Of a DNA stretch of 64,000 nt, positions 32,301 through 59,216 are shown one piece after another. Both the position numbers and the translations under genes were made by a program. The notes below the pieces were generated by a model, which saw nothing but the letters and a program-made list of their open reading frames with translations, ran no database searches and had not been told where the DNA came from. How positions within the stretch are numbered: the stretch's first letter is position 1; every line of letters begins with the position of its first letter. This DNA comes from Onthophagus taurus (taxonomy: Eukaryota; Arthropoda; Insecta; Coleoptera; Scarabaeidae), in assembly GCF_036711975.1 (NCBI RefSeq), contig NC_091970.1, forward strand, positions 5,649,501-5,713,500, read 5' to 3'.

Positions 32301-32903
32301 GTAGATCGGTGGTAACTCGAGATTCCAGGTATCGGGTCTGTGGACCAAAGCAACCGAAAGAGAGTAGATGTAAAGACCCTCATTCAAGTGCATCCTTCCC
32401 CAAACGGCGGTTTTGTAGAAAGTTTCGAAATCAACAGCGCTGTATAAAACCCTGAAGAAAGCGATCGCTTCATTTTGGTGCTTGTCGTAGAAGATGGAAA
32501 ATACTTGTCCTTTCGGTAAACTACCAACCTGGTAGTTACTCAAGAAATCAAGTACATATTTCGGGTTCTAAAAGAAATGAATCAAATCAAATTTATTAAA
32601 TAAAATTTAAAATTATAATTTACGCTGTATCCTTGCAAATTCTCCTCGAGGTTGTAAGTTAAACCAATCTTTTCGTATTCAGGCAAATAGTTGGGTTGGT
32701 ACACATATTGGAATAATTGATAAACAATCTTCTGCTGTTGCAAGAACTCTTCTGCATTCAAAATTAAATTAAAACGTTATTAAAAAGTAATAAAAGTTAA
32801 ACTTACCAGTTGGGTACACCGGTTCTTGTGTATTGTAGACGGGTTTTTTGAGAGTGGTTGCCCATGCAAGGGCCAAAAGCCCCAAGAAAACTAGAGACTT
32901 CAT
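29375..32903 (-). CDS. Hexamerin (larval storage protein) with long Tyr/Gln/Pro-rich insert
   Basis: Five exons: 32807-32903, 32624-32751, 31001-32567, 29725-30946 and 29375-29669, encoding 1102 residues. Typical hexamerins have about 700. They are secreted into haemolymph as hexamers, stored by larvae and derived from haemocyanins (family knowledge). Seen: signal peptide MKSLVFLGLLALAWA; the N-domain with PPIYEIYPFYFYNFNVF; the M-domain start LSYFTQDIGMNAFYYYYH; and the C-domain end DKLPYGYPFDRPID. Copper-binding histidines of haemocyanin are not evident. The extra length is one block, about residues 184-585, inside exon 3 between two conserved segments. A TATA box and initiator lie upstream. 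AATAAA lies near 29297-29306. Expression in fat body is expected from the family, not seen here. Confidence 0.93.
31040..32243 (-). repeat. Coding repeat: Tyr/Gln/Pro/Lys/Ser-rich hexamerin insert
   Basis: About 400 residues made almost wholly of Y, Q, P, K, S, F and N. The best units run about 52 residues and carry YGKSYPWNQVPTQY, YSQQYYQKYNQYP and LPWF (about 31345-31860), with more degenerate units on both sides. The open frame is kept throughout, so the insert is probably translated. Plus-strand open frames in this block are shadows. Confidence 0.85.
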
Positions 32904-32919
32904 CTCTATACTTCACTTT

Positions 32920-32957
32920 AAGTCTGATCCCCATTAAAACACACTCAAGTTTTTATA
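32920..32957 (-). promoter_or_regulatory. Hexamerin core promoter
   Basis: TATAAAA (reverse of 32951-32957) lies about 30 bases before ATCAGACTT (reverse of 32920-32928), a good insect initiator. The ATG is 17-25 bases downstream of the initiator. Confidence 0.75.
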
Positions 32958-32959
32958 GT

Positions 32960-34148
32960 AAAACGGTATCATGTTTTGCTAAAAAAATTCGGATAACCTA
33001 AGGCGTGGTGGTGGGTGAGGCGAGAAATTTCTTTCATTATCACACCTCATTAGGATGTCTTCTGCAACTCGCATCATTGTTATCTTATTGCTAAGGCACC
33101 GATATAAAAATAAACACTTTTTATCGGGTTAAATGCAAAATTTCCTACGACAAACTTATTTGTTAGTAATCTTACAATACAGTTTATTAAATTTTTCCAT
33201 TAATAATAATTTAAAAAAATATATTAAATCATATTAAATTTAAATTTTTAGAACAAATATTTTATTTTCATTAATTTTTATTGCAATCGGTATTTGTTCT
33301 TGTTTTTTTAACCAATGCAAGGTTACGCAATTGAGATAAACATGAAAAAATGTGTAATTCTTCATTTTGATTATGTTAATTAAAAACGTTTTTGTGTGAG
33401 ATTAAAAGAATTTAATCAATAATGAGTTAATTAACGATTAGAATTATTTTTTAATTAATATTTTAAATTAATAATTTTTGACTTATCATTTTTTATTATC
33501 AATATTTCCCAATGTTACCCATTAATACCTATTATTTTAATATCTATACTTTCGTGTTGATTACTTATAGTTTTATTCTATTTGCAGAAAAATACGTCAA
33601 CTTCAATGGATAAAGCAGCTTGACTTCAACTTCCTTCATTCGTTGTAGATGACAAACATCCTTGAAGTAATAGTTTGGTAAGTACAAAACATTTTTTTCA
33701 ACTTTAGATCATTTTGACCTATTGTATGTAAGTTTTAATAGATTCTTAGAATAGTTTCTAATTGATCGGAAACTTGGGTTATGCAAACAAGCTTATCTAT
33801 ATTATATATTTTGGATATTATATAAAATGTCTAAGACATTATTCCTTTTCTGGATGGAAGTAAGTGTTTCATCAAAATGTCATTTAATCATTTATCTTCT
33901 TCGCTGTTGTCTGGGTTGGAGTTGTTGTAATTATTTATGCTCAGAGAGCAAGAACCTTTTCATGTTATGTTAATTTATTGAAATATTTGTTTTATAATAT
34001 TGTATATAACAACTGTAACTAACATTATATTATTGACATCAACTATCTTGATAAACTAAATTCAACAGGAGTGTCATACTCATAACACAATTTTGACAAT
34101 GTCAAATAATTTTGATTCTAATCGTTTCAAAAAAACGTTTAAAAAGTG
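32960..34148. other. Gap between hexamerin and the SLC6-like gene
   Basis: AT-rich, with no gene apart from the hexamerin relic at 33635-33695. It holds the presumed promoters of two divergent genes. Confidence 0.5.
33635..33695 (-). pseudogene. Relic of a second hexamerin 3' exon
   Basis: The plus-strand sequence CGTTGTAGATGAC...ACATCCTTGAAGTAA...AGTTTGG matches the same-strand sequence at about 29432-29472 in hexamerin exon 5, in the same orientation. It covers about 60 bp of the region encoding YFKDVVIYNE and has no surrounding exon. I infer a remnant of a decayed tandem hexamerin copy. Confidence 0.65.
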
Positions 34149-36023
34149 ATGTCATCTACAGAATTTTCAATTTCGCATTCGAACTTGGGTGTGCTTCTTG
34201 AAAAGCATAAAGGTACATATGCAAGATTTCGATGGACTCGTTCTTGGGATTTTATAATGGGAACGATATGCTACACCGTTACTTATACCGGTTACAACAC
34301 GTACGGTGTCGAAAGTAATCCCGGAGTAATACAATACATGCTGGTGGGGATATTTGTCGGACTGCCCATATTTTATACTCATATATTTCTTGGGCAATAC
34401 TGTCAAATGGGGATGTTAAATTTTCGTCATATAATGCCGATGGCTAGAGGAATAATGTATACGTTTTTGGTGTGCGTTTTAATGAAAACAATTCGATTCG
34501 GATGCGCGCTAACCGACACGATTTTATATCTTTTAATGTCTTTCCAACGAAATTTGCCGTGGTCAAGATGTCCTAAAGGATACGAAGATGTTTGTAGTGG
34601 AAATAATTCTTCAGCTGGGTATCCACATACTGCCTACGTATTTTGGAGATACATTTACTCGGGAAATCCAACTTTGGATATGGAAAAGATTTCGTATTCT
34701 ATGCCATCATTTATCATGGTAACTTGCTTTTCAATTCAATGGGTTTTCATGTTTATAGTGGCAGTTGCGGCTTATTGGAATCATCTTAAATTGACGAAAA
34801 CGTTGTTTTACATACATTTTTCAATTTTATCCATTTTAATGGTAGCTTTAGCTTTTAAAGCGGAAAGCGGCGTCTCACCTTACACTTTAATTTTTTCTCA
34901 AACATCGGAATTATTTCAATTAGAACCTTGGCTTCTTGCCATACGAACTGTTCTCGTTAATTTTTGTTTGGCTGATTTATATAATATGTATTCTGGAGCT
35001 CATTTACCTAAAGGGGCTTTATCTGGTACTTTATCCTTTTGTTGTGTGTGTGCAATATCGGTGTTAAATTTAATGGCTTCTTCGCTATCGTATATTTGTT
35101 ATAGCATAATAAATAAACAATATCCTTCTGGTATATCTGTGAAACATCCTCACGAACTCAGTGCGGGAGTTGCGCATATCCTCATCATCATCCCCCAAGC
35201 TATAAGTACTCTAACCGTCCCTCAATTATGGTCCTCGTTATTTTTTATATCGTGCATTTGTTTAATTGTCTCAAATCAAATGCTTCATTTATTCAGCATA
35301 CAAATGACCATCACGGATATGTACCCCAACTTTGCAAAATATAGAACATATCTTTTAGCGGGTTGTTGTTTATTTGGTTGTGTCGCCGGAATACTTCTCC
35401 AATCAAAAACAATATATGTAGCTGCAAAATATGCCATAGAAAATGCGATGGACAATCTCGTCGTGATTTGTAACCTTATTTGGACCGTTACTATTTACTG
35501 GGTGTACGGCGTAAGCACATTATCCGATGATATACAATTCCTAATGGGAACACAACCAACGAAATTTTGGAAAATAACCTGGTATTTAGTACCCTCCATT
35601 TTAGTCCTAACTATAATCGCTTATTTCTCGCTTCACGCCACAATGCATCAAAATTATATCTTTATAAACGTATGTATGTTGATGATGTTGGTAACGCCGT
35701 TTGCCTTTTTTTTTGTCTCGGAATTATTCGTCAGTATAAAAAGGAAGAATTTATTGGGAACCTTTCAAGCGCACAGAAAATGGGGACCGCCGGATCTCGA
35801 AGACCGCATTTATAGAAAATTTTTTAACCCATCTACAGAAACTAAGTATCAAGCTCACAAATTGATATGTCATCATAATTGTTTATTGTCGAGTCCAGTT
35901 TTAAGGAACGTTGTTCATCAAGAAAACGCGTTAAGAGATAATTATTTTAACGTATCTTCGAAAACTGAGGTAATGGATGGATATGAAACTCAATCGAGTA
36001 TTGTTGGCAGTACTTCAATGTAG
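34149..36023 (+). CDS. Divergent intronless SLC6-type (sodium neurotransmitter symporter family) transporter
   Basis: A single 624-residue open frame starts at ATG 34149. About twelve hydrophobic segments fit the SLC6 fold. The TM2 segment FVGLPIFYTHIFLGQYCQMG matches the family, and a CPKGYEDVC loop sits where the extracellular EL2 cysteines lie. The TM1 ion-site signature (family G-NVWRFPY) is absent, replaced by GTICYTVTYTGYNTYG. The usual TM6 and TM8 sodium/chloride motifs are also not evident. Transport by the normal sodium-coupled mechanism is therefore doubtful. Substrate is unknown. Lack of introns suggests a retrocopy origin, but the intact frame argues for a working gene. The C-terminal tail is about 80 residues and polar. 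AATAAA lies near 36035. Confidence 0.8.
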   Translation: MSSTEFSISHSNLGVLLEKHKGTYARFRWTRSWDFIMGTICYTVTYTGYNTYGVESNPGVIQYMLVGIFVGLPIFYTHIFLGQYCQMGMLNFRHIMPMARGIMYTFLVCVLMKTIRFGCALTDTILYLLMSFQRNLPWSRCPKGYEDVCSGNNSSAGYPHTAYVFWRYIYSGNPTLDMEKISYSMPSFIMVTCFSIQWVFMFIVAVAAYWNHLKLTKTLFYIHFSILSILMVALAFKAESGVSPYTLIFSQTSELFQLEPWLLAIRTVLVNFCLADLYNMYSGAHLPKGALSGTLSFCCVCAISVLNLMASSLSYICYSIINKQYPSGISVKHPHELSAGVAHILIIIPQAISTLTVPQLWSSLFFISCICLIVSNQMLHLFSIQMTITDMYPNFAKYRTYLLAGCCLFGCVAGILLQSKTIYVAAKYAIENAMDNLVVICNLIWTVTIYWVYGVSTLSDDIQFLMGTQPTKFWKITWYLVPSILVLTIIAYFSLHATMHQNYIFINVCMLMMLVTPFAFFFVSELFVSIKRKNLLGTFQAHRKWGPPDLEDRIYRKFFNPSTETKYQAHKLICHHNCLLSSPVLRNVVHQENALRDNYFNVSSKTEVMDGYETQSSIVGSTSM

Positions 36024-36569
36024 TCTGTATAAAATAAAAGTAAAGTTACAATTAGTTATTGAGATACAAGTTTCTATTTTTTCCATGGATAACGTCAACT
36101 GTCATAACATCTCTTTCATCATTATCTGGTACCAATTTCTTCAAGATACTCCAATCTCTCGCTTGATACTCTCAATGTTCTTCTCCATCACCAATTTATA
36201 TTTCACCCAAGATCAACAGTTTTTCTTCATTCCCCACATCGCCAGATCCCCATTTCTGCTTCAAAGATAAGAGAGAGAATCCAGTATTATCTTATCTTGC
36301 TCCTTTTTGCACCTGCTTCGTTAGTTTTCCATTCGGGAAGTCTATCCACAACACCTTGTTTGTCTTCAACTTGACCTATTCTACCTCCTAAGCAACTCCA
36401 CCACAAACTCTTTTCATTACAAATAAATAAGCAAAATTCTAGTCATATCACATCGTAAACTAAATTTTGTAAAAGTATGAAAGAACACCTTATCTATAAG
36501 ATGTGTAAATATTGAGGGATTTTAATAAGGATGATTTTAACTTTATTACTTTTTAGGAAAACATTTTTA
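36024..36569. other. Gap between convergent SLC6-like and short yellow genes
   Basis: Pyrimidine-rich plus strand at 36100-36420 may be an old repeat read on the minus strand. Nothing is identified with confidence. Confidence 0.4.
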
Positions 36570-37630
36570 TTAGATTTTAACAACTCTCACTTGTATTTTA
36601 GGCAAATCTTTATAAATTCGATTAGTTTTATAACAAATTTCATTCTTAGCGGGATTAACAACAGCGAAAACGTCCCCAGATTCCAAAATAAAATGGGAAA
36701 CGTACGGGAGTTCCTTATAGGATTGTTTAACAACTTCATGATTTTCAGCAACAATAGGAAGATTTTCCATCCACTTCACCACGGCATAATCTCTTGTTAA
36801 GTAATAATATAATCTCCCATAAGAATCAGAAATCATTCCGGTTGATGGGCCCAGTTTTTCACCAATTTTATTTACTTCAATTTCACAGTCATCCTTAAAA
36901 AATAATATTTAAAAACAAGCATTAATATTATAATAATAATTACCGAATCACAATTATTTATATTGTTGAGATCTAACGAATATAAATCAACACTTTTTCT
37001 TGAAGTCAAATAAATGATTGGTTTGATTGAGGAGAAAGCTAAATATTGTGTGGATATTATTACATTTAAGGATTTCAATTTGATTTTAGTTAACCTCAAA
37101 GTTTTCGAAGAAAAAACTAAAATAACATCATCAACTCCTCCAATAAAAGCTCTCCCATTAAACGAATCCACTAAAATATAATTTAATTGTTCTCCTTTTA
37201 CATCCCATAATCTACTGCTTTGTCCAATCGTGTTATAATATAAATTATAAATAACAATTTTAGGGGAACATTTTTTATTCCCTTTGTCCAAAACCCATAA
37301 TTTAGCTTTTTTCTGATCAACGTCCAAAGATATCACATCTTGATGATCTTTACAATCCCCAAAATTCTGTTGTTTATAACTAGGATAAATCTTTTTTCGG
37401 AAAAGTCCGTATTTGTTATCATTCGGCCATGGAACTTCGATTAAAGTGGGATTTGATATGTTATTAAAACAAGAACTTCTTGGTAAAGCTAAAAACGCTC
37501 GATTTTTGTACACTGATATGCTCGAAACGAAATACGTCGGTGATATTTTTAAGTTGCTTAAATCCCACGTGGAATTTTCGCGTAATAATAAAATAAAGTT
37601 TAAAAGGAACAAAAAAAAGTTCAACGACAT
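36570..37630 (-). CDS. Short, divergent Yellow/MRJP-family protein
   Basis: Two exons, 36944-37630 and 36570-36893, join in phase 0 to 336 residues. Family members usually have about 380-450. Yellow proteins are secreted beta-propeller proteins linked to cuticle, pigment and eggshell (family knowledge). Seen: a hydrophobic N-terminus, the propeller-like FLALPRSS, KLWVLDKG, CSPKIVIYNL and LNYILVDS stretches, and a second half with GPSTGMISDSYGRLYYY. It lies tail-to-tail with the SLC6-like gene and upstream-adjacent to yellow-g2 on the same strand, suggesting an old tandem duplication. It has diverged more than its neighbours. A weak TATA-like TTTATAAATT lies near 37742-37750. Confidence 0.8.
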
Positions 37631-38159
37631 CTTCTCGTTTTAAAAATGCTTAAAAGACTGAATGAACTGTTTTTTTTGTTGATTACTTCTTTTAGAAATG
37701 CTGAATAAGACCGTGTATCCGATTCCGCAATTTCACTTTCAATTTATAAATAAATTTAACCATGTTAAAAAATTACTTATTACAAATACTAGAATATTAA
37801 ATATTTAAAAACTATACATTTCGTTTTACATGTGGAAATATTTATTTAGAATTTATAATTTATATCTGTTATTGATATATCGCGATATCGTAGCTTAAAA
37901 TCTAAAATAACACCAAGTTCTTTCCAGTTTCAGATCACCTCTCTTAATGCACTTCTATGGGTTAAGGATGTGTGATCTACAACTGGATTAATCTTGAATA
38001 GTGTTGTAAAACGACTATCAGACACCTCAAGAACGTATGGTATTAGAAAACAAAAAGGTTTAATATCATTTAAATCACAAAATACAAAAAAAAAACATAT
38101 TTATTTGGAATTATTTATTTATTATTTCATTTATTTCCAAATAACTCAAATGAAGTAAA

Positions 38160-39272
38160 TTATTGACCAATAATATTAACTTGTTGAACAGCACCACAAC
38201 CAACAGTATTTTGAATAAAATCTGGGAAGTTACTTTCCAAAACTCTAATTCTTTGTCGCTTGATGTCGGCAAAAGCGGAAGTAGCCAACATACAACTTTG
38301 CGATTTATAAACAACCACGAAATTTTCAGTGCTAAAAGTGGTATTAACATCCCACCTATAAATTTCTGGTCTTCCCTCGTATCTGAAAAAGATGGCCGAT
38401 CCCAAATCGGTACCAACAATAACTAATTTATGCGGTTTTGGTCCTAAATCAGTCACTTTTCCTGCAGCTGATCCAGCTCTTAAGTAATCGGTTCTTAAAG
38501 AAAATACTCTCGTTGAAGATAAATAGGTGAAAATGAGGAAATTGTTTCCGCATCCTTTTTGAACTAAAGCCATGTATAAGACGTCTCTTCTTGACGTTCC
38601 TGTTAGGATTGCTTTGGGAAGAGCAACTCTGTATCCTTTGTTTAAAACAATGTCGAAAACTAAAATGGATCTTGTAGCGGCATCACTCACGTAAACGTAA
38701 GGTTTTCCTTCGCCGCAGTATTCAACAGCAATGTATTGAAGGCGAGATGCTTGGACAACCAAACCAGATAAATCCAAAGTTTTCAACATTTTTCCTGTTT
38801 TCATGTCATAAGCGACTACTTTTGGTTTTGAGTGTCTAATTGGTTGTTCTAAACTGTTAGCAACACCAACATCCAAAATCCATAAGATTTCTTGGGCATC
38901 AATGAACAAATCTACAACAGAAATAAGACCATCTTGGCTGTTCTCATCTTGAGCGGACCAACAAGGGAATGGGGTAAGAACAGATTCGCATCCTTGTTGA
39001 TTCAACGAAACTTTCGCCAAAGTTACAGGAACCCCCGGTTTGTATCTTGGTAAAGCAAGGATAGCTTCATCTTTATAGATTTGACCACGAGTTGCAATCA
39101 CATTTTTGCCAATGTATCTCCCCGATTTCTTATAAATAGCTTTGGTCGCTTCGCACGGCCATTGGAAAAGACCCCCAGTCCATTCTAAAGGTCTGTAAGA
39201 AACCTCTTTATCACTGTACGCGTTACAAGCGATGATACCAAAGGTGATTAATAAGATGAGTTTTGGCAACAT
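38160..39272 (-). CDS. yellow-g2: Yellow-g2-like secreted protein
   Basis: A single coding exon of 370 residues with signal peptide MLPKLILLITFGIIACNA and a full MRJP propeller. Seen: SGRYIGKNVIATRGQIYKDE, ALPRYKPGVPVTLAKVS, TPFPCWS, EILWILDVGVANSLEQP and FPDFIQNTVGC. It is close to the plus-strand gene at 41986 and divergent from it, the arrangement of yellow-g/yellow-g2 in Drosophila. In flies these act in the eggshell. A 5' untranslated exon ends at 39340 with CAG|GTAAGA, the acceptor lies one base before the ATG, and TATAAAA (reverse of 39391-39397) sits upstream. Assignment as g2 rather than g is tentative. It lacks the NCE motif that follows the PCW segment in its partner. Confidence 0.85.
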   Translation of the reverse strand: MLPKLILLITFGIIACNAYSDKEVSYRPLEWTGGLFQWPCEATKAIYKKSGRYIGKNVIATRGQIYKDEAILALPRYKPGVPVTLAKVSLNQQGCESVLTPFPCWSAQDENSQDGLISVVDLFIDAQEILWILDVGVANSLEQPIRHSKPKVVAYDMKTGKMLKTLDLSGLVVQASRLQYIAVEYCGEGKPYVYVSDAATRSILVFDIVLNKGYRVALPKAILTGTSRRDVLYMALVQKGCGNNFLIFTYLSSTRVFSLRTDYLRAGSAAGKVTDLGPKPHKLVIVGTDLGSAIFFRYEGRPEIYRWDVNTTFSTENFVVVYKSQSCMLATSAFADIKRQRIRVLESNFPDFIQNTVGCGAVQQVNIIGQ

Positions 39273-39339
39273 TCTGAAATTTTTAAATTTGGATTAAATT
39301 AAATTGAAAAAAATGGTAATTTAAAAAATTATTTCTTAC

Positions 39340-39397
39340 CTGTTGAATTTCTTTTGCCAAATTGACACTTCAATAACTCTTCACTCGATGTTTTATA
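39340..39397 (-). promoter_or_regulatory. yellow-g2 TATA box and 5' untranslated exon
   Basis: TATAAAA (reverse of 39391-39397) precedes a short leader that ends in a consensus donor at 39340/39339. The intron is about 65 bp, ending TTTCAG just before the ATG. Confidence 0.65.
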
Positions 39398-39399
39398 CA

Positions 39400-40095
39400 T
39401 AATTTTATTTTGATTACATCAAGGTCGAATGTGAATAAATTTGAAATGTTTAAAAAATATGCTTAAATTGTTATTTTGGTTTTTTTCTTTTTTTAATAAA
39501 CAACTAGAGTAATCAAAACAAAATTATTGAGTACACCTTACGTAGACTGATCATGTTACGAAACTTTACTTAAAAAAGAAGATAAAAAGGAAAATTCTTG
39601 AAATTAGATAAATAAGTTAAATGAATGTTGTGGTATTTAATGGAAAATGATTTTTTAACAACAGATACGTATCCTTGTAAAATAATCGCGGAGTTACTTT
39701 CTACGTTCCCGCCCACATTTTAACCCATTTTTTTTTTTAATATTTAAATATTAAACAATGAACGGTTTCTTTTGTCCCATTTTTTATTAATTTTTAATAT
39801 CAACAAAAATTGTATCAGTTTCGAAATTAAAAGTGCTCACCTTTCGATTTTATTTGAAGTACAAAGTTAAACTTTGTGAAACAATAGATCATAATGGGCA
39901 TTTTTAAAATGGTTGATTTAGAAATTTATTATTTCAAATCGATCTGGTTGCAAAATTTGTAGTTATATTTTATTTTCTTGCATTTTATATTTTTTAATAA
40001 AGGTTAATTAAATCAACGATTTTTAAAAACGTATTAATAATAATAATTTATTCTTTCCCAGAAGGTTACAATTTATATTAAGTACATACAATACA
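39400..40095. other. Gap upstream of yellow-g2
   Basis: AT-rich, with no gene seen. It forms part of the region between the two divergent yellow genes and could hold shared regulatory sites. Confidence 0.45.
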
Positions 40096-40099
40096 TAGA

Positions 40100-40690
40100 A
40101 CTTATATAATTTTTATCCCTTTAACAAGTCTCTCCTTGTCACCCTACGTCTCTTCGTTGCCACCACCTCCCCCAGCCATCTCCATCCCTTCGCCTTCTCC
40201 CCCAGCACCTGCCTCCAATCCATCTCCTCTTCCCTCAACTCATTGGGCTCCACCAGCACATGGTGTAAAGACTCCCAGCCTGTATTCCTCCCTTTCTCGC
40301 TGCCCATAACCTCCCCTTATTTGCCTCAATCTGTCTGTAGTATTCCTCCAAGATTTTATAATATCTTCCTCAAAACCCTCACCTTATCCGTTGTGCCAAC
40401 CCCAACACTCACTTCCAGTACCTGGTCTGCACATCTTCTAAGAGCCCTTGCTCCATCCCCATATATCCATCCCATACATCATTACGCTTTTTATCAAGCT
40501 CTCAAACATTAATTTCCCTTTTCCCACATCTTTCCCAAAAATCCTTAACCATCAACAATCTTTCTGATATAGCAGCTCACTCAAGCCTGTAAATTGATTC
40601 CAGTGATTCCATCTCCAAAGCTTGCAGGTCCATATTCTTTCTTTTTAGTTCTAGTCAGGGCAAGTATATCTATTTTAGATTTATAGCCAA
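40100..40690 (-). mobile_element. Degraded LINE (non-LTR retrotransposon) 3' fragment
   Basis: On the minus strand, pieces of a reverse-transcriptase C-terminal region can be read: FESLIKSVMMYG.DIWGW near 40490, and ESLHHVLVEPNELREEE followed by VLGEKAKGWRWL near 40170-40260, in frames broken by mutation. The KSV-YG--IWGW and HHVL-E motifs fit the end of insect LINE ORF2 proteins. No complete ends are visible. Confidence 0.7.
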
Positions 40691-40989
40691 TTTACATTCC
40701 AAGTCCTTTTCCGGCGTTTTTTTCTCAGTTTTTGAATTTTGTGGGTAATGCTTTCAATTTCTCCTCTTCCACCATTCTTTGTATCAACCTCTCTTTCCTT
40801 ATCTCAACATATTTTCGTTAATTCTTTGATTTTCTTATTTAATTAATTGCTCCTTTCTTACATCTTTAATTTCTATCATTAAGATCACTTTCAATGACAT
40901 TATTTTATCTAACTACATTGTTCAGCCTCCAGTTTTCTTTTTGGGCTTAATACCGCATTAACATTACAATGTTGAAGTAAATGAGTTGT

Positions 40990-41410
40990 ATCATCGCGAT
41001 ATATGCTAATGAAAGAATTATTTTTGGTGTGTTGGTATTACATTAAATTTGCTATAAAATGGTTTTTATTTCATATTGATATCTCAATTCGTTCTTGAGA
41101 TACGATTTTTTTAAATTAACAACCAAAGCGCATTAATATTACAATGTTGAAGTTAATAAATTATATCACCAGGATATATAAGAACGAAAGAATTATTTTT
41201 GGCGTAGTGATTCTAGATTAAATTTGCCATAAAATGGTGTTTATTTAATCTTGGTATCTCAATTCGTTCTTGAGATATGATTTTTTAAATCTAACCTAGA
41301 CTATTAAACCATGTTGAATAATTATTTATAATAATTATTTTTGATGTGATGAATCTTTAAAATTATTAAAGTTTCGTGGTAATATCTCAATTTGTTTTTG
41401 AGATACAAGC
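40990..41410 (-). repeat. Inverted copies of the ~180-bp ATCTCAA/TTGAGAT repeat
   Basis: Boxes reading TATCTCAATTCGTTCTTGAG occur near 41080 and 41255, and a looser one near 41383. They are preceded by TAAATTTGC.ATAAAATGGT, the reverse complement of the tail of the unit at 6541-6985. Confidence 0.75.
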
Positions 41411-41855
41411 AAGAATTTTTGGAATAAACTTTATTTTTGTCGTTTATAACCACCACTTAGATTTCTACATGTAATTTTAGTAATTTTAGGATTGGCGAAA
41501 CTTTAATTTCTTCCTTACATTCTACTCTTTATAACGAGATTGCGTTATATCTTAACGATCGTACAAAATTGTTCGTTTTGGTTATTTATTCAAGCGAAAA
41601 CAAATTTTAGCTATTAAACTTAATTAAATCCAGTTGGTGTGCGTGTTGTTTTAAATAATTATTTTATTAAACAAATATTATTTTTGTTAATTTAGCATTC
41701 TTAAGTAGCCCAAAGTAACACACAGGTAAAAGAAACAAAAAAAATGTGTATTCGTACGTTTTGTTAGTTCATGGTCGTTTTAACGAAAAAAAAAAAAAAT
41801 AAAACAATCTGTTTGCAAATTATTGTGTCTATCAAAAACAATTTACGAAATACCC

Positions 41856-41917
41856 TATATAAACTGAAGCAGCATTTAGTAAAGTAATCCATAACGTCTT
41901 CGTCACATCTAAGAAAG
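41856..41917 (+). promoter_or_regulatory. yellow-g TATA box and 5' untranslated exon
   Basis: TATATAAA at 41856-41863 precedes a leader ending AAAG|GTAATT at 41917. The acceptor TTTTAG is at 41977, eight bases before the ATG. The leader intron matches the layout of yellow-g2. Confidence 0.7.
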
Positions 41918-41985
41918 GTAATTAACTATTAATTCTATTAAAAAAAATCTTCTAATAATTTTTTTCGTTAATTTTAGATTGAACT

Positions 41986-43107
41986 ATGTTCAAGTTACTA
42001 TTTTTAGCATCGATTGTAATCGCGCAATCTTGGGCGCATTACGATAGGAGTTCAGTTACGGATCTTAGCTTTAAAATATCCGGATCGCATTTGGAGTTTC
42101 CGTGCGAAAGCACCAAAAACATTTATTTCAGCTCTGGGAGATACATCTCTAAGAACATAATCGGCACTCGAATGCAAATTTATAAAGATGAGGCCATCGT
42201 CGCTTTGCCAAGATACAAACACGGAGTTCCCTTCACTTTGGGTAAATTCTCTTTGAAAACGAGAGGGTGCCAAGCGACTTTATCGCCATTCCCTTGTTGG
42301 TCGATGCAAGAAGAAGGAAATTGCGAAGCGATCCAATCCGCTGTTGATATCTACTTGGATCAAAATGAAATTCTTTGGATCTTAGACGCTGGAATCGTTA
42401 ATACTTTGGAACAACCCGTAAGGAGATGTCCCCCAAAAGTGCTTGGAATCGATATGAAAACCGGTCAAGTGATAAAACTTTTCGATTTGACCACTTTAAC
42501 TTCGTCCGAAACTCGCCTTCAATACATCGTGATTGATTACGCCGTTGATGGAAAAGCTTACGCTTACATTTCCGATGCCGGGGCTGGTACAATCATCGTT
42601 TATAACATTTTCGAAGAGAAAGGTTACAGAGTTGTCCTCCCTAAAGCTGTGTGCCACTCAGGAAAAGATGTTTTATACTTAAACTTGATCCATAAATCTT
42701 GCGGAAACGTTTTATTCTTCACCTACTTAGCCTCAAACAAAATCTTCTCCGTTAAAAGCGAAAATCTCCAATCTGGGCAAGCCGCTGGGGCCATCGTTGA
42801 AGCTGGAATTAAACCCGAAGGGAATCAAATCGTTTTCTTGGGAACCGATAACGGCGCTGCAATCTTTTTCAGAAACAAAGGCGAATCTGACATTTACATT
42901 TGGAACACCGAGAGTTGTTTCAAATCCGATAACTTCCTCCTTGTCCAGAAAGGTAACGAATGTAGGTTATCGACCCAAGTGGTTCCTGGATACAAGAGAT
43001 TAATGTGGACCATCGAGTCGAATTTCCACGACTTCGTTTCGAACACCGTTGGATGTTTAGGATCTTCAATTGTTGTTCATCCATTAGTTAAAACATGCGA
43101 TAATTAA
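41986..43107 (+). CDS. yellow-g: Yellow-g-like secreted protein
   Basis: A single coding exon of 373 residues. Signal peptide MFKLLFLASIVIAQSWA is followed by the MRJP propeller: SGRYISKNIIGTRMQIYKDE, ALPRYKHGVPFTLGKFS, EEGNCEAIQSAVDIYLDQ, ILWILDAGIVNTLEQPVRRC and FHDFVSNTVGC. In Drosophila and Tribolium, yellow-g proteins are made in the ovary and needed for a firm, water-tight eggshell (recalled). The gene is divergent from yellow-g2 across about 2.5 kb that contains a LINE fragment and repeats. AATAAA lies at about 43122. Confidence 0.88.
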   Translation: MFKLLFLASIVIAQSWAHYDRSSVTDLSFKISGSHLEFPCESTKNIYFSSGRYISKNIIGTRMQIYKDEAIVALPRYKHGVPFTLGKFSLKTRGCQATLSPFPCWSMQEEGNCEAIQSAVDIYLDQNEILWILDAGIVNTLEQPVRRCPPKVLGIDMKTGQVIKLFDLTTLTSSETRLQYIVIDYAVDGKAYAYISDAGAGTIIVYNIFEEKGYRVVLPKAVCHSGKDVLYLNLIHKSCGNVLFFTYLASNKIFSVKSENLQSGQAAGAIVEAGIKPEGNQIVFLGTDNGAAIFFRNKGESDIYIWNTESCFKSDNFLLVQKGNECRLSTQVVPGYKRLMWTIESNFHDFVSNTVGCLGSSIVVHPLVKTCDN

Positions 43108-51104: not shown

Positions 51105-53867
51105 TTCATAATGTTTAATAAGATAATTAAGAACATTTTTTGGTTATAAATAATCTTTTCATCGATCCTAATTATTGAATTATAATCGATTTTGATGTTG
51201 AAATCGCAAATTTTTGAATTTTAATCCTTGTAGGTTGGCAACAACCCTTGGTGGATTAAACTAGGTTATTAAATACGTTTTTTGGGTTGATTTGAAACGT
51301 TTTTGTCCATAACAAATTTTTCCATTACTTCTCATTGTTGAGTTCTAACCTATCTTATTGTTAAAAACTTCAAATTCTAGAAATTCCAAATTATAAGCCA
51401 TTTAGGTTGGTAATAATTAATGATGGGTTAAAACACTTTATCCATAATGTTTAATAAGATAATTAAGAACATTTTTTTCTTACAAATAATCTTTTCATCG
51501 ATCCTAATTATTGAGTTATAATCGATTTTGATGTTGAAATCGCAAATTTTTGAATTTTAATCCTTGTAGGTTGGCAACAACCCTTGGTGGATTAAATTAG
51601 GTTATTAAATACGTTTCTTAGGTTGATTTGAAACGTTTTTGTCCATAACAAATTTTTCCATTACTTCTCATTGTTGAGTTCTAACCTATTTTATTGTTAA
51701 AAACTTCAAATTCTAAAAATTCCAAATTATAAGCCATTTAGGTTGGTAATAATTAATGATGGGTTAAAACATTTTATCCATAATGTTTAATAAGATAATT
51801 AAGAACATTTTTTTGTTACAAATAATCTTTTCATCGATCCTAATTATTGAGTTATAATCGATTTTGATGTTGAAATCGCAAATTTTTGAATTTTAATCCT
51901 TGTAGGTTGGCAACAACCCTTGGTGGATTAAACTAGGTTATTAAATACGTTTCTTGGGTTGATTTGAGACGTTTTTGTCCATAACAAATTTTTCCATTAC
52001 TTCTCATTGTTGAGTTCTAACCTATCTTATTGTTAAAAACTTCAAATTCTAGAAATTCCAAATTATAAGCCATTTAGGTTGGTAATAATTAATGATGGGT
52101 TAAAACATTTTATCCATAATGTTTAATAAGATAATTAAGAACATTTTTTTGTTACAAATAATCTTTTCATCGATCCTAATTATTGAGTTATAATCGATTT
52201 TGATGTTGAAATTGCAAATTTTTGAATTTTAATCTTTTTAGGTTGGCAACAACCCATGGTGGATTAAACCAGTTTATGAAATACGTTTCTTGGGTTGATT
52301 TGAAATGTTTTTGTCCATAACAAACTTTTCCATTGCTTCTAATTGTTGAGTTCTAACCTATTTTATTGTTAAAAACTTCAAATTCTAGAATTTCCAAATT
52401 ATAAGCCATTTAGGTTGGTAATAATTAATGATGGGTTAAAACACTTTATCCATAATGTTTAATAAGATAATTAAGAACATTTTTTTCTTACAAATAATCT
52501 TTTCATCGATCCTAATTATTGAGTTATAATCGATTTTGATGTTGAAATCGCAAATTTTTGAATTTTAATCCTTGTAGGTTGGCAACAACCCTTGGTGGAT
52601 TAAACTAGGTTATTAAATACGTTTCTTGAGTTTATTTGAAACGTTTTTGTCTATAACAAATTTTTCCATTACTTCTCATTGTTGAGTTCTAACCTATTTT
52701 ATTGTTAAAAACTTCAAATTCTAGAAATTCCAAATTATAAGCCATTTAGGTTGGTAATAATTAATGATGGATTAAAACATTTTATCCATAATGTTTAATA
52801 AGTTAATTAAGAACATTTTTTTGATACAAATAATCCTTTCATCGATCCTAATTATTGAATTATAATCGATTTTGATGTTGAAATCGCAAATTTTTGAATT
52901 TTAATCCTTGTAGGTTGGCAACAACCCTTGGTGGATTAAACTAGGTTATTAAATACGTTTCTTGGGTTGATTTGAGACGTTTTTGTCCATAACAAATTTT
53001 TCCATTACTTCTCATTGTTGAGTTCTAACCTATCTTATTGTTAAAAACTTCAAATTCTAGAAATTCCAAATTATAAGCCATTTAGGTTGGTAATAATTAA
53101 TGATGGGTTAAAACATTTTATCTATAATGTTTAATAAGATAATTAAGAACATTTTTTTCTTACAAATAATCTTTTCATCGATCCTAATTATTGAATTATA
53201 ATCGATTTTGATGTTGGAATCGCAAATTTTTGAATTTTAATCCTTGTAGGTTGGCAACAACCCTTGGTGGATTAAACTAGGTTATTAAATACGTTTCTTG
53301 GGTTGATTTGAGACGTTTTTGTCCATAACAAATTTTTCCATTACTTCTCATTGTTGAGTTCTAACCTATCTTATTGTTAAAAACTTCAAATTCTAGAAAT
53401 TCCAAATTATAAGCCATTTAGGTTGGTAATAATTAATGATGGGTTAAAACATTTTATCTATAATGTTTAATAAGATAATTAAGAACATTTTTTTCTTACA
53501 AATAATCTTTTCATCGATCCTAATTATTGAATTATAATCGATTTTGATGTTGGAATCGCAAATTTTTGAATTTTAATCCTTGTAGGTTGGCAACAACCCT
53601 TGGTGGATTAAACTAGGTTATTAAATACGTTTCTTGGGTTGATTTGAGACGTTTTTGTCCATAACAAATTTTTCCATTACTTCTCATTGTTGAGTTCTAA
53701 CCTATCTTATTGTTAAAAACTTCAAATTCTAGAAATTCCAAATTATAAGCCATTTAGGTTGGTAATAATTAATGATGGGTTAAAACATTTTATCTATAAT
53801 GTTTAATAAGATAATTAAGAACATTTTTTTGTTATAAATAATCTTTTCATCGATCCTAATTATTGAT
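51105..53867 (+). repeat. 336-bp satellite array, about 8 copies
   Basis: ATGTTTAATAAG starts at 51111, 51447, 51783, 52119, 52455, 52791, 53127, 53463 and 53799: every interval is exactly 336 bp. Units share TTCATCGATCCTAATTATTG, GTAGGTTGGCAACAACCC and GAGTTCTAACCTAT. Neighbouring units differ by only a few substitutions. The array ends abruptly near 53867. Inverted copies lie at 55795-57345. Confidence 0.97.
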
Positions 53868-55404
53868 GCCTAACATTTCAAAATTGTTATTGATAAAATC
53901 GATTTTTTTAAATAAAATGATAATAATTAAAGATTTTATTTTGAAATCTAAATGTCATCAATTCCTTAAATATTTCTTGGTTTATTATGACATGAAAACA
54001 TTCCAATAAAACTACCTCGACATTAAATTTCTTTATATACCATTATTAACGCTGATGTAGGTTGAAGTTGTTGAGAGCGGTTAAATTATATAAGAGTTCA
54101 ATTCTTGTCCCAGATCAAGTTTTATGGATACAATAACGAACGCATTCATTGAGTAAAACAGAAACTATTTTATGGGTTGTCTTAAAGAATTATAAATCGA
54201 GTTAAATCGCGAAGTTAATCGATATAATTTGTGGTGTCATTGTCAAGTTTACAAGTTGTTAAAAAAAGTAATTGTATAATAATTGGTTTCTGCAAGGTTA
54301 AATTGACAAGAAATTTCTAATAATTCATTCTCTTAGAATTTAATTTCGATAAATTCTAGATCAATTAAGGGATTTATTAGAAAAACATTTTTTTTCTGTT
54401 TGTAAACACAACATGTAATCTTAACCGCAGTAGTACATAAATTTTAAAAGTAATATAAAGTAACAAAGGCGACATTTAATAGGGACAACGCCCTCTTTAT
54501 ACAGAAATAACCTTGCCCGATTACTTTCATTCTTATTCTTATAGTGTTGTTTTCGCATGTTGTATGCCATACGGATCCTTTTTTTTGGTCCAATAATTAT
54601 GTCTTAGCTAAATACTTTTTTATTTAAATTAACAAGTTTCTTTAGTTCCATATTGATTATTAGTACAAAATAGCCCAAAGCAAAGAATAAACCCACAATC
54701 AATTCTTTTGCCATAGAATTGCATAAACATGCAATGTTTCTTGTCTTATACTAATGACACGGAATGTTGTGGCATTTTACTTCCTTTACGTTCACCAATC
54801 AATCTATTTCACAATAACACCCATTCAATTCTTTGTTACTACTAACATAAGATAAAAATAATCAAATAATCTTATTATGATTAAAATTACCATAAAAATG
54901 TTCTAATACTCTTAATAAGATTTACATAAACAAATTCAAAACTTAAACTTAATGAGTCATTACACGGGATAAATGTCAGAAATGCCAGAACAAGACAAAA
55001 TAGGAAAGTGATAATTTGTCGGAAGTAATCCGAAATGCAAATTCACCAGAATAATTATTACAAATATTGGCATTTATGCACGAGCTATTAATCACAACGT
55101 TACGAATGGGTTAAGTGTTTATAAAGCCGTAAAAAGTCTTGTTTTATATCTATTACTTTTTTTGTCTCCAAACAGTGATAATTACATATTAATCAAATGC
55201 TTACAATTTAATTTATGTTAATCCTATGCGATAATTAATGAGCGATATGTATTGCAAGATTGCTTTTGTAATTAAGATTTTCAAATGAATAAGAAAAATA
55301 TAGTGTGTTAGGTGTTAACAAAGTTGCCTACACTTTTTTTATTTATTTGTTCAGAACGAATTTATGTAGGTATCACCATGAAATAAAAAGTGAAATTTGT
55401 TGCC
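53868..55404. other. Gene-free spacer
   Basis: AT-rich unique-looking sequence with no supported open frame, RNA gene or repeat. Confidence 0.5.
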
Positions 55405-55794: not shown

Positions 55795-56674
55795 GAAATT
55801 CTGGAATAGGTTAGAACTCAACAACTAGAAGTAATGGAAAAATTTATTATGGACAAAAACATTTCAAATGGAACGTAGGAAGGAACGTATTTAATAAACT
55901 AGTTTAATCCACCATGGGTTGTTGCCAACCTACAAGAATTAAAATTCAAAAATTTGCGATTTCAACATCAAAATCGATTATAATTCAATAATTAGGATCG
56001 ATGGAAAGATTATTTATAACCAAAAAATGTTCTTAATTATCTTATTAAACATTATGGATAAAATGTTTTAACCCATCATTAATTATTACCAACCTAAATA
56101 ACTAATAATTTGGAAATTCTAGAATTTGAAGTTTTCAACGACAAAATAGGTTAGAACTCAACAATTAGAAGTAATGGAAAAATTTGTTATGGACAAAAAC
56201 ATTTCAAATCAACCCAAGAAACGTATTTAATAAACTAATTTAATCCACCAAGGGTTGTTGCCAACCTACAAGGATTAAAATTCAAAAATTTGCGATTTCA
56301 ACATCAAAATCGATTATAACTCAATAATTAGGATCGATGAAAAGATTATTTATAACCAAAAAATGTTCTTAATTATCTTATTAAACATTATGGATAAAAT
56401 GTTTTAACCCATCATTAATTATTACCAACCTAAATGGGTTATAATTTGGAAATTGTAGAATTTGAAGTTTTCAACGACAAAATAGGTTAGAATTCAACTA
56501 TTAGAAGTAATGGAAAAATTTGTTATGGACAAAAACATTTCAAGTCAAGCCAAGAAACGTATTTAATAAACTAGTTTAATCCACCAAAGGTTGTTGCCAA
56601 CCTACAAGGATTAAAATTCAAAAATTTGCGATTTCAACATCAAAATCGATTATAATTCAATAATTAGGATCGAT

Positions 56675-56882
56675 AAATAGTATATTGTTTTATATGGAAG
56701 AGAAGCAGTGCTTTTTATGGCGTGGTCTGTCGCTTAGCGACGAACGCAGTGAGTCGCTAATGACAGATGAGCCGTTAAAATTGTGGCGTGTCCGACAGTT
56801 TGCCGGACGAACGAAGTGAGTCCGGCAATGACGGACCAGCCACAAACGAATCTGCTTCTCTTCCGAATAAAACATAGTATTT
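56675..56882. mobile_element. Fold-back element A inside the satellite
   Basis: Terminal inverted repeats pair GGAAGAGAAGCAG with CTGCTTCTCTTCC, extended by TAGTAT...GTTTTAT/ATAAAAC.ATAGTA. Inside, TTTATGGCGTGGTC faces GACCAGCCACAAA around two tandem hairpins at 56726-56767 and 56790-56836. No protein is encoded. It is much more GC-rich than the surrounding satellite. MITE-like; family not recognised. Confidence 0.8.
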
Positions 56883-57090
56883 TTTCTTCAAACGTTGCAA
56901 ATAATACGGCGCTAAAGTGAAATGTTCTTCAACGTTATGGCGCTAAAGTGAAATTTACTTTAGCGCCATAACGCTGAAGTACTTTTTTGCTATGTTGATC
57001 TTAGCAACCATCGTTATGCAACAATGACTTACTTCTACCGCGAGTAAACACGACAACAAAGTTGTCATTTAATGACGTTTGAAGAAAAAA
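56880..57090. mobile_element. Fold-back element B inside the satellite
   Basis: Ends are exact inverted repeats, TTTTTTCTTCAAACGT (56880-56895) and ACGTTTGAAGAAAAAA (57075-57090). An internal perfect 17-bp stem, CGTTATGGCGCTAAAGT with its complement, lies at 56933-56949 and 56957-56973. A partial direct copy of GGCGCTAAAGTGAAAT lies just before it. It is non-coding and MITE-like and adjoins element A. Confidence 0.8.
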
Positions 57091-57339
57091 GATTATTTAT
57101 AACCAAAAAATGTTCTTAATTATCTTATTAAATATTATGGATAAAATGTTTTAACCCATCATTATTTATTACCAACCTAAATGGCTTATAATTTAGAAAT
57201 TGTAGAATTTGAAGTTTTCAACGACAAAATAGGTTAGAACTCAACAATTAGAAGTAATGGAAAAATTTGTTATTGACAAAAACATTTCAAATCAACCCAA
57301 GAAACGTATTTCATAAACTAGTTTAATGCACCATGGGTT

Positions 57340-57754: not shown

Positions 57755-59216
57755 ATGTGGTTAACACCCATCGCAATCATCACCTTACTAACATCATTCG
57801 GTGCTTGCCAAGATTTCGAAGTCATCAACCAATGGAATCTGTTAGATTACGAATTTCCCAATTACGAATTTGCTTCAAAATATCGGTAAGTAATTAATTA
57901 AAATAACTATTTAATTGTTTCATTACAAATAATTATTTTTTAGCCCAGAAAATTCGGTTTTTACTGGATTAGAAGTAACTGAAGATAGGATATTTTTGGC
58001 AACCCCTCGATTACGAGCGGGAGTTGCCGCAACTTTAGCAACGATCCCACGACGCACCCCCCCGGGGTCAAGCCCCGTTTTAAAAGCTTATCCAGATTGG
58101 TCGTTTCACTCCGCAGGAAATGATAATAATAATTGTTCGGGGTTAATCTCGGTTTATAGGATACGAAGGGATTCTTGCAATCGACTTTGGGTGTTAGATT
58201 CGGGGATTATGACTTCGATCGATGATTTCACGCGAGTTTGTACCCCTAAATTATTAATTTTTAATTTACGAACGGACGTCGTTGAGCGCCAAGTTATTTT
58301 TCCTCGGGAAGTTATTAGACCATCGTCTCTTTTTACTAATTTAATAATCGATGAAAGTGTTCAAGGAAGTTGCGATAACGCCGTTGTTTATATCAGCGAT
58401 ACAGCGGCCCCGGGGATCATCGTTTACGATTCGTTGAAAGACCAAGCTTGGAGATTTATCCATCCCACTATGTTCCCCGATCCCGATCATTCCGACATCG
58501 AGATTGATAGCGAACGATTTTCTTTGATGGATGGGATCGTTGGATTGGCGCATTCCCCGAATTTGAGGCTTATGTATTATCAACCTTTGGCGACCGATCG
58601 GGTTTTTACTATTTCGACGGATGTTTTGAGGAAGGGCCCTTTGGCTGAGGGGGAAGAGTTGCCCGTTCGATTGGCTGGGAGGAAATCGTCTCAAGGGTTA
58701 GGATTAACGGTTGATCCTAGGGATGATAGTTTATTTTTTAGTCCTTTAACTGAAACTTCGGTTACTTCATGGAATCCGATAACAAATCAACAAAGGTGAT
58801 TGTTTTGTTGAACCTTGATATTTTAAACATTCTATTTTATTTAATCTTGAACTAAATTTGAACAATACAATATTTTTAACTCAAATATTTAATCGATTCG
58901 GTTTAAAACCACAATTACCATCTTAACTTTTTTCTAAGTACCATTAAGGATTAACCATAATCTCGTGTATAAAGATTTATTATCATGTATTTTTTTTTTT
59001 AATAGATTATTGGCTTTCGATCGAAAACGATTACAATTTCCCGCTGAATTGAGATGGATGAATCACGACCCGGATAGCGTTTGGGCTTTAACCACGCGGT
59101 TTCAAAGATTTTTCAAAAGAACTGTAAAAAACAACGAAGTTAATTTGAGGATCGTTCGATTTCCGTTGAATTCTGTGCCTACTTTCCCAGTAAGCAACAG
59201 CGTATTCTTCAAATAA
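57755..59216 (+). CDS. Yellow/MRJP-family protein (not of the g type)
   Basis: Three exons, 57755-57885, 57944-58795 and 59006-59216, join in frame to 397 residues. Signal peptide MWLTPIAIITLLTSFGAC is followed by the family opening INQWNLLDYEFPN and the propeller stretches ATPRLRAGVAATL, GLISVYRIRRDSCNRLWVLD, VYISDTAAPGIIVYD and MDGIVGLAHSP, and the gene ends near PNSVPTFPVS-like FPLNSVPTFPVS. The strong CNRLWVLDSG match places it in the Yellow family. I cannot assign the subfamily; an h- or c/e-like gene is possible. The codons are more GC-rich than the flanking satellite DNA. An acceptor-like TTCTAG nine bases before the ATG suggests a 5' untranslated exon. It is stranded between satellite blocks, 14 kb from yellow-g. 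Confidence 0.9.

Follow-up and report, generated by a model that had tools for sequence, protein, structure and literature searches.

The window analysed here is a 64-kb stretch of the genome of Onthophagus taurus. Host genes lie at 29685-43107 and 57996-58799 and include hemocyanin/hexamerin-type ORFs, a neurotransmitter symporter, and three MRJP/yellow-type genes. An AT-rich satellite with a 336-bp unit occupies two opposite-strand blocks, 55990-57100 and about 51170-53870, and one of its units is interrupted by a mobile element of 411 bp. The two tandem hairpins described in the initial annotation are the left end of this element. Its parts and flanks, in window coordinates, are as follows.

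56664-56677, forward strand: target flank on the left, with AAA as its last bases; on the other side the flank starts AAGATTATTT at 57089
56678-57088, forward strand: whole non-autonomous Crypton copy, 411 bp, oriented as the recombinase gene of its full-length relatives
56678-56708, forward strand: left terminus, TAGTATATTG...GAAGAGAAGCAG, whose initial nine bases, TAGTATATT, are also present in a second Crypton family
56717-56775, forward strand: hairpin 1, with loop GAACGCAGTGA at 56742-56752, seen in DNA and RNA folds
56781-56845, forward strand: hairpin 2, with loop GAACGAAGTGA at 56809-56819, seen in DNA and RNA folds
56839-56895, reverse strand: internal inverted copy of the joined ends (denoted J-prime), complementary to the left terminus and the adjoining right terminus
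56905-56986, forward strand: strong internal palindrome of GGCGCTAAAGTG units, separate from the hairpins and found in the length classes compared
57075-57088, forward strand: right terminus, ACGTTTGAAGAAAA

Hairpin 1 is built from the stems TCTGTC/GACAGA and AGCGAC/GTCGCT around its loop, and hairpin 2 from GTCCG/CGGAC and TGCCGGAC/GTCCGGCA, all as first described, and TGGCGTG does precede each of the two. Folding, the check that had been proposed, gives 56660-56890 an energy of -59.1 kcal/mol as DNA (shuffle mean -24.5; z -10.25) and of -104.1 as RNA (z -10.22), and none of 200 shuffles is as good in either form. The strongly folding structure is real and is part of a mobile element. The initial annotation also envisaged a cloverleaf closed by the terminal repeats of the element. 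The region 56660-56890 does fold into a cloverleaf, with an outer stem formed by the left terminus (from 56678) and the internal segment 56839-56895 rather than by the two termini; the first 40 and last 40 bases of the element show no pairing (inverse score 10; 1762 of 2000 shuffles as good). A parvovirus-type terminal hairpin, considered because of the T-shaped fold, was dropped, as only one end of the element has the fold.

The ends of the element were set from the flanks of copies that do not lie in arrays, 27 on the left and 20 on the right, and from six paralogous empty satellite sites. Every one of the 27 left flanks ends in A, and 26 end in AA. The right flanks readable outside array junctions all start with A (20 of 20), and 16 of the 20 start with AA, which places the insertion at A^A, without target duplication. 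The empty sites are six other units of the 336-bp satellite in the window, two of them directly before the element and four in the opposite-strand block at ~51.2-53.9 kb; five read GATCGAT(GAAAA)GATT and one GATCGAT(GGAAA)GATT. At the five bracketed positions the window reads AAA, element, AA, so nothing was gained or lost at insertion, and all six paralogous sites agree on this.

The element is repeated across the 290.8-Mb assembly. Its 25-base right end is found at 217 places with up to two mismatches, against none for the reversed control, and the best 40 of 221 candidates for a 191-base query against the same assembly are all 100% identical. From the loci read, 30 distinct copies were gathered and told apart by their left flank. 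The unit TAGTATATTG...GAAGAAAA measures 411 bp in 13 of the 30 and 324-898 bp in others, with the right end of six copies lying outside the stretch read. Some copies stand head to tail with their ends joined exactly, GAAGAAAA running directly into TAGTATATTG. Junctions in arrays contain four A (GAAGAAAATAGTATATTG), where the internal inverted copy would template six. Right-end spacings are 597, 597, 464, 597, 597, 597, 464, 597, and 465 in the array at C3:10.246-10.251 Mb and 411, 387, 387, and 387 in that at C3:17.357 Mb.

The hairpin loop was also followed through the genome. At up to one mismatch, the loop pattern occurs at 528 places, compared with 111 for the control. Two patterns meant to reveal further hairpin families with this loop, BCGAACGNAGTGAGV and WGACGAACGNAGTGAGTCW, are found at three places (control 0) and none, respectively, and with so few matches the motif seems to be confined to the Crypton family of the window element and not to mark a wider hairpin class in the O. 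taurus genome. The matches to the motif in IMG/VR, 46 stretches with one apiece, are taken as chance.

The initial annotation had proposed that a protein-coding partner with the same ends be sought. Such a partner exists in a 2415-bp copy (denoted E2; C1:25328231-25330645), which has the same ends and AA flanks as the window element and contains two frames. The first of them, ORF1 (MSSEIN...YLGLK), leads into a GT...AG stretch, after which comes ORF2, a frame with the catalytic blocks of a recombinase; the two frames are probably exons. ORF2 matches PF00589 (Phage_integrase) with an E of 8.9e-10 and 39 bits, over a cut-off of 27.1, and ORF1 matches PF13495, a phage-integrase SAM-like domain, at an E of 1e-4, which is under the cut-off of that family. 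The segments GACRCDEL, GHSLRRT, LGGW, and EGYIEE are present in ORF2. Alignments of ORF2 to XerA (E 0.026) and to one further chain (E 0.01) are weak; from these and from general knowledge of the enzymes, we take its catalytic residues to be R-H-R-Y. A relative of the recombinase was not confirmed in IMG/VR.

Searching the genome with ORF2 yields 131 matches (150 of 168 candidates scored). Eight places are 100% identical, seven of them full-length and the eighth the first part of a 4020-bp copy (denoted E4; C1:15714822-15718841) that carries the same gene with a long insertion; one TAA is present in two of the eight. The second part of E4 matches at 98%. ORF1 has 104 matches, eight of them at 99-100% identity. 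Eight near-identical gene-bearing places, together with the near-identity of the copies read, suggest that the family has been active recently in the O. taurus genome. The remaining 122 ORF2 matches, 28-58% identical, represent many other Crypton-like families and their remains within one genome.

Because a gene for a tyrosine recombinase, split in two, is found in copies that have these ends, the window element is a 411-bp non-autonomous Crypton. The recombinase is the only protein, and there is no reverse transcriptase, as judged by frame lengths in E2, which has no further stop-to-stop frame of at least 100 aa besides the two recombinase parts. In the long copies, the start codon of the recombinase comes directly after the hairpin region. 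Terminal inverted repeats are absent, as in other Cryptons, and the internal inverted copy is an extra feature. The 4-6 bp terminal direct repeats of fungal and stramenopile Cryptons are also absent, the flanks sharing only A or AA, which agrees with the animal Cryptons, for which the accessible text of Kojima and Jurka (2011; PMC3212892) describes no terminal repeats. The host and structure suggest a placement in CryptonI: an insect host and a single tyrosine-recombinase protein are common to CryptonI or other animal Cryptons in the sections available of PMC3212892, as are non-autonomous derivatives that outnumber full copies, and no target duplication is seen here. Compared with the animal Cryptons described there, the window element adds inverted joined ends and a branched palindrome inside the left end.

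The left end carries palindromic hairpins and then an imperfect inverted copy of both ends joined. When the joined ends (the last 40 and first 45 bases) are compared in inverse orientation with 56839-56895, the local alignment score is 61. Among 2000 dinucleotide shuffles of the interior the highest score is 40, so that none attains the observed value, and 400-base stretches tested along the first 56 kb of the window, in one orientation, give 36 at most. With the hairpins situated between the left end and J-prime, each end of the element has its own half of the inverted copy to pair with. The alignment is broken at the crossover, where the internal copy reads GAAGAAAAAATACTATGTTTTATTC and the joined ends GAAGAAAATAGTATATTGTTTTATAT. 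Mismatches sit near the crossover in both Crypton families.

The second of these families is represented by two copies, C2 and C7, whose recombinases are 43% and 44% identical to that of the window family, and in which the 428 bases upstream of the recombinase were read. In both, TAGTATATT follows AA where the flanks part. Next in C2 comes a single long hairpin (DNA fold z -9.05), unrelated in sequence to the window hairpins, followed by a T6 tract and GCACGATCG. The C2 copy is built on a plan similar to that of the window element, and an unrelated palindrome at the same place favours structure over sequence. C7 has neither a hairpin nor an inverted copy, though its two frames carry no stop.

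The inverse of the C2 motif, TCGATCGTGCAAAA, was taken as the predicted right end before the search. At up to one mismatch it is found at 132 places, against 54 for the control, and 100 of the 132 were listed, comprising 22 exact matches and 78 that carry one mismatch. Six of the 78 listed one-mismatch places lie within 3 kb of a recombinase match, where ~0.25 would be expected. All six read CCGATCGTGCAAAA, share the strand of the recombinase match and lie 110-599 bases downstream of it, and the C2 and C7 copies are among them, at 183 and 259 bases. Six of the nine listed places with this spelling are near a recombinase match, and none of the 69 with other spellings. The exact places are spelled like the inverted copy. 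Eleven of the 22 listed are within 3 kb of a recombinase match (~0.07 expected). All eleven lie upstream of the match on the other strand, at distances of 244-771 bases for ten and 2440 for the last, and they include the C2 source of the prediction. Chance expectations were derived from base coverage, and the neighbourhood counts used the 104 ORF1 and 131 ORF2 matches. These places probably come from one or a few related families and so do not count as independent families.

In C2, joined ends with 30 left bases score 45 against the interior (shuffle maximum 30), and with 24 left bases 33 (shuffle maximum 32); with the 24 left bases alone, 62 of 2000 shuffles are as good. The hairpin foot falls within these 24 or 30 left bases, so that part of the support for the left half comes from the hairpin itself. 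The case for an inverted copy in the second family is strong for the right-end half and moderate for the left half. Elsewhere, at C1:25206382 and C1:25206616, CCGATCGTGCAAAA and TCGATCGTGCAAAA stand in opposite orientation with 234 bp between them, and the nearest 3 kb contain no recombinase match; the pair is probably a non-autonomous copy of the second family.

The differing stems of the two window hairpins, with pairing kept, had originally been read as covariation that pointed to a selected structure. Between the hairpins the observation holds to a modest degree. In a comparison of the two folds by eye, three aligned pairs are changed on both sides and still pair, one pair is inserted, and the middle stem shows a register shift. 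The 11-base loops differ at one base, and AATGAC is kept on the 3' side of the hairpins. Among genomic copies it fails. The alignment has 29 rows, one of them the window, and sixteen are identical across 217 nt. Seven substitutions are carried by five of the 29 rows; three break pairs, one leaves a G.T, and three are at unpaired positions. No compensatory change is present in the pair count of 21 of the 29 rows, from which eight rearranged copies were excluded. The copies are too young for covariation to show among them, and substitutions at paired sites mostly break pairs, which leaves the original reading of covariation unsupported in that form. Pairing between arms can also persist through hairpin-templated repair instead of selection.

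The rearranged copies are informative about the tips. The tip of hairpin 1 is deleted in L065, L066, and L067, at three places with different flanks, one of which is the 2415-bp copy E2, and a tip deletion common to three copies makes the tip look not strictly needed. The tip of hairpin 2 is deleted in L063 and is absent from E4. The loop of hairpin 1 is inverted in L064 and that of hairpin 2 in L035, and these tip inversions indicate that events of the hairpin-templated-repair type do happen in these copies. The hairpin-1 deletion extends from one to the other of two GTCGCT copies at the hairpin foot and is consistent with slippage on a folded single strand. L068 has a large deletion. L069 has a net insertion of 334 bp inside hairpin 2, at about 1050-1400, which folds on itself almost end to end and is probably another mobile element. 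A Flp-like inversion between two inverted sites was considered and rejected, as it would flip the whole hairpin block, which occurs in none of the 29 aligned rows.

The reading that we tentatively favour, at somewhat below an even chance, is that a folded single strand brings the joined ends and their inverted copy together as a recombination site resembling the attC sites of integrons. The element would move as a circle, with the joined ends, GAAGAAAA followed by TAGTATATTG, as the inferred recombination site. During replication, repair, or excision, the circle or the donor strand would become single. Folding would start with the hairpins, which would place the joined ends opposite the internal inverted copy, so that one strand alone could provide a duplex recombination site with unpaired bases at the crossover. 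The recombinase would then exchange the folded site with an A-rich target, AA^AA. Transfer of only one strand would suffice, with replication completing the process, and a gain in copies would be possible. The stems of the hairpins would be free to vary while pairing holds.

Several observations bear on this scheme. Tip deletions and inversions fit strands that really fold, and the exact joined ends in tandem copies are an indirect sign of a circular intermediate. Against the folded site count the E2 copy without the hairpin-1 tip and the E4 copy without the hairpin-2 tip, which indicate that neither tip alone is needed, if their jumps postdate the loss. Also against it are the C7 copy, which is free of stops in its two frames and has no hairpin or inverted copy, the weak internal match of the 24 left bases in C2, the absence of compensatory change among copies, and the fact that an accessory binding site would also explain the inverted copy. 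That animal Cryptons in general move through a folded single-stranded site, with a hairpin-linked inverted copy of the joined ends at the left end, is less probable than not.

The serious rival is that the element is a Crypton in which the inverted copy and palindromes are double-stranded accessory sites for the recombinase or a host factor. This possibility is plausible, if on the whole improbable. Such sites would determine which way recombination runs or how much of it takes place, or would keep down the promoter of the recombinase gene, ~390 bp from the left end, and the hairpins would be by-products of palindromic sites and duplication. Extra binding sites are common among tyrosine recombinases, the region is located directly upstream of the recombinase start codon, and tips are lost singly, all of which would suit accessory sites. 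A site for one protein, however, predicts arms that agree and a spacer that is free, whereas here the loop agrees (one base off) and the arms differ. The palindrome of C2, moreover, has another sequence and no such loop.

A second alternative is borrowed from DIRS retrotransposons, in which the internal inverted copy would act as a splint, holding both ends of a single-stranded copy to give a circle that the recombinase integrates. The single strand would perhaps arise from RNA, with reverse transcriptase supplied in trans. In the accessible portions of PMC3266345, DIRS1-like elements have internal complementary regions inverse to both ends, which overlap at the circular junction, and integrate without duplication. 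The layout here resembles theirs: the window element has an internal region complementary to the joined ends, a tyrosine recombinase, integration without duplication, and a short junction, which is A-rich in several of the elements in that text. It differs from them in that its region is on the 5' side of the gene and adjoins palindromic hairpins. Genes for reverse transcriptase, RNase H, or methyltransferase and long inverted terminal repeats are not found, judging by the length and frames of E2, where no frame of reverse-transcriptase size is present, and by the termini. The lack in E2 of any other frame of at least 100 aa, the retention of a probable intron, and array junctions with four A rather than the templated six make the splint improbable.

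The cloverleaf may instead act as RNA in the recombinase transcript, in translation control or as a small RNA. The RNA fold is very good and precedes the gene in long copies. The structure, however, takes in the extreme bases of the element together with an inverse of its far end, which are better explained as DNA ends, and no Rfam family reaches its gathering score anywhere in the 64-kb window, nor is a tRNA found in 56600-57200, so that a role as RNA is very improbable.

A non-autonomous Helentron (HINE), moved by rolling-circle replication with subterminal inverted repeats and 3' stem-loops, was considered and dropped as barely credible, since the long copies with the same ends encode a tyrosine recombinase and not a Rep/helicase, even though the minus strand would fit in its T^T insertion, T-rich start, and tandem joined ends (compare the accessible parts of PMC4067079 and PMC5148889) and TTTTCTTCAAACGT is at one end with its inverse just inside the stem-loops at the other. 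Asymmetric inverted repeats, T^T insertion, and 3' palindromes are likenesses to the HINE/Helentron elements in the text available of PMC4067079, which differ in being moved by Rep/helicase and in having, in the mite families treated there, 3' palindromes of 5-10 bp. No Rep/helicase partner with the same ends was found among the 10 of 12 Rep-domain hits examined: neither the loop nor either end motif (14-18 bases, one mismatch allowed) is present in the 10-20 kb around these Helitron_like_N hits, where shorter sub-motifs of 11-12 bases matched six times, singly and with one mismatch. Of the surroundings of 14 PIF1 hits, the analysis covered what falls within these stretches. Separately, an open Helitron Rep/helicase frame of 1674-1675 aa is present at four places, L051 2437-7461 (C2:29.12 Mb), C19:517498, C19:572210, and C26:21160, and the two that were compared have common satellite-like repeats of ~395 bp upstream; this is possibly an active Helitron.

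Folded recombination sites have precedents in bacteria. The attP of phage CTX is a folded site that is used by a tyrosine recombinase. It is mentioned briefly in PMC9345347. Integron attC sites, as described in the sections available of PMC2727003, keep their structure without keeping their sequence and have an unpaired crossover region. They share with the proposed site a folded form, a variable terminal structure, an unpaired central spacer, and a tyrosine recombinase. They differ in being bacterial and in that their folding is established, whereas that of the window site is inferred only. In the open PMC literature, as far as its accessible text goes and with Repbase Reports outside the search, no description of an inverted joined-end copy in Cryptons was found. 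A circle has been proposed for Crypton movement in that literature, and no experimental study of this movement was found in the text accessible there.

The recurrence of the joined ends, inverted, inside the left end and beside a palindrome is a candidate architectural rule that provides a testable substrate. The rule offers a way to locate the ends of animal Cryptons, elements in which terminal repeats are reported to be absent, and forms a structural link between DNA-only tyrosine-recombinase transposons and the DIRS retrotransposons. If the folded single-stranded site is true, these Cryptons would be a eukaryotic counterpart of integron cassettes, which could explain how Cryptons gain copies and how the internal complementary regions of DIRS elements originated.
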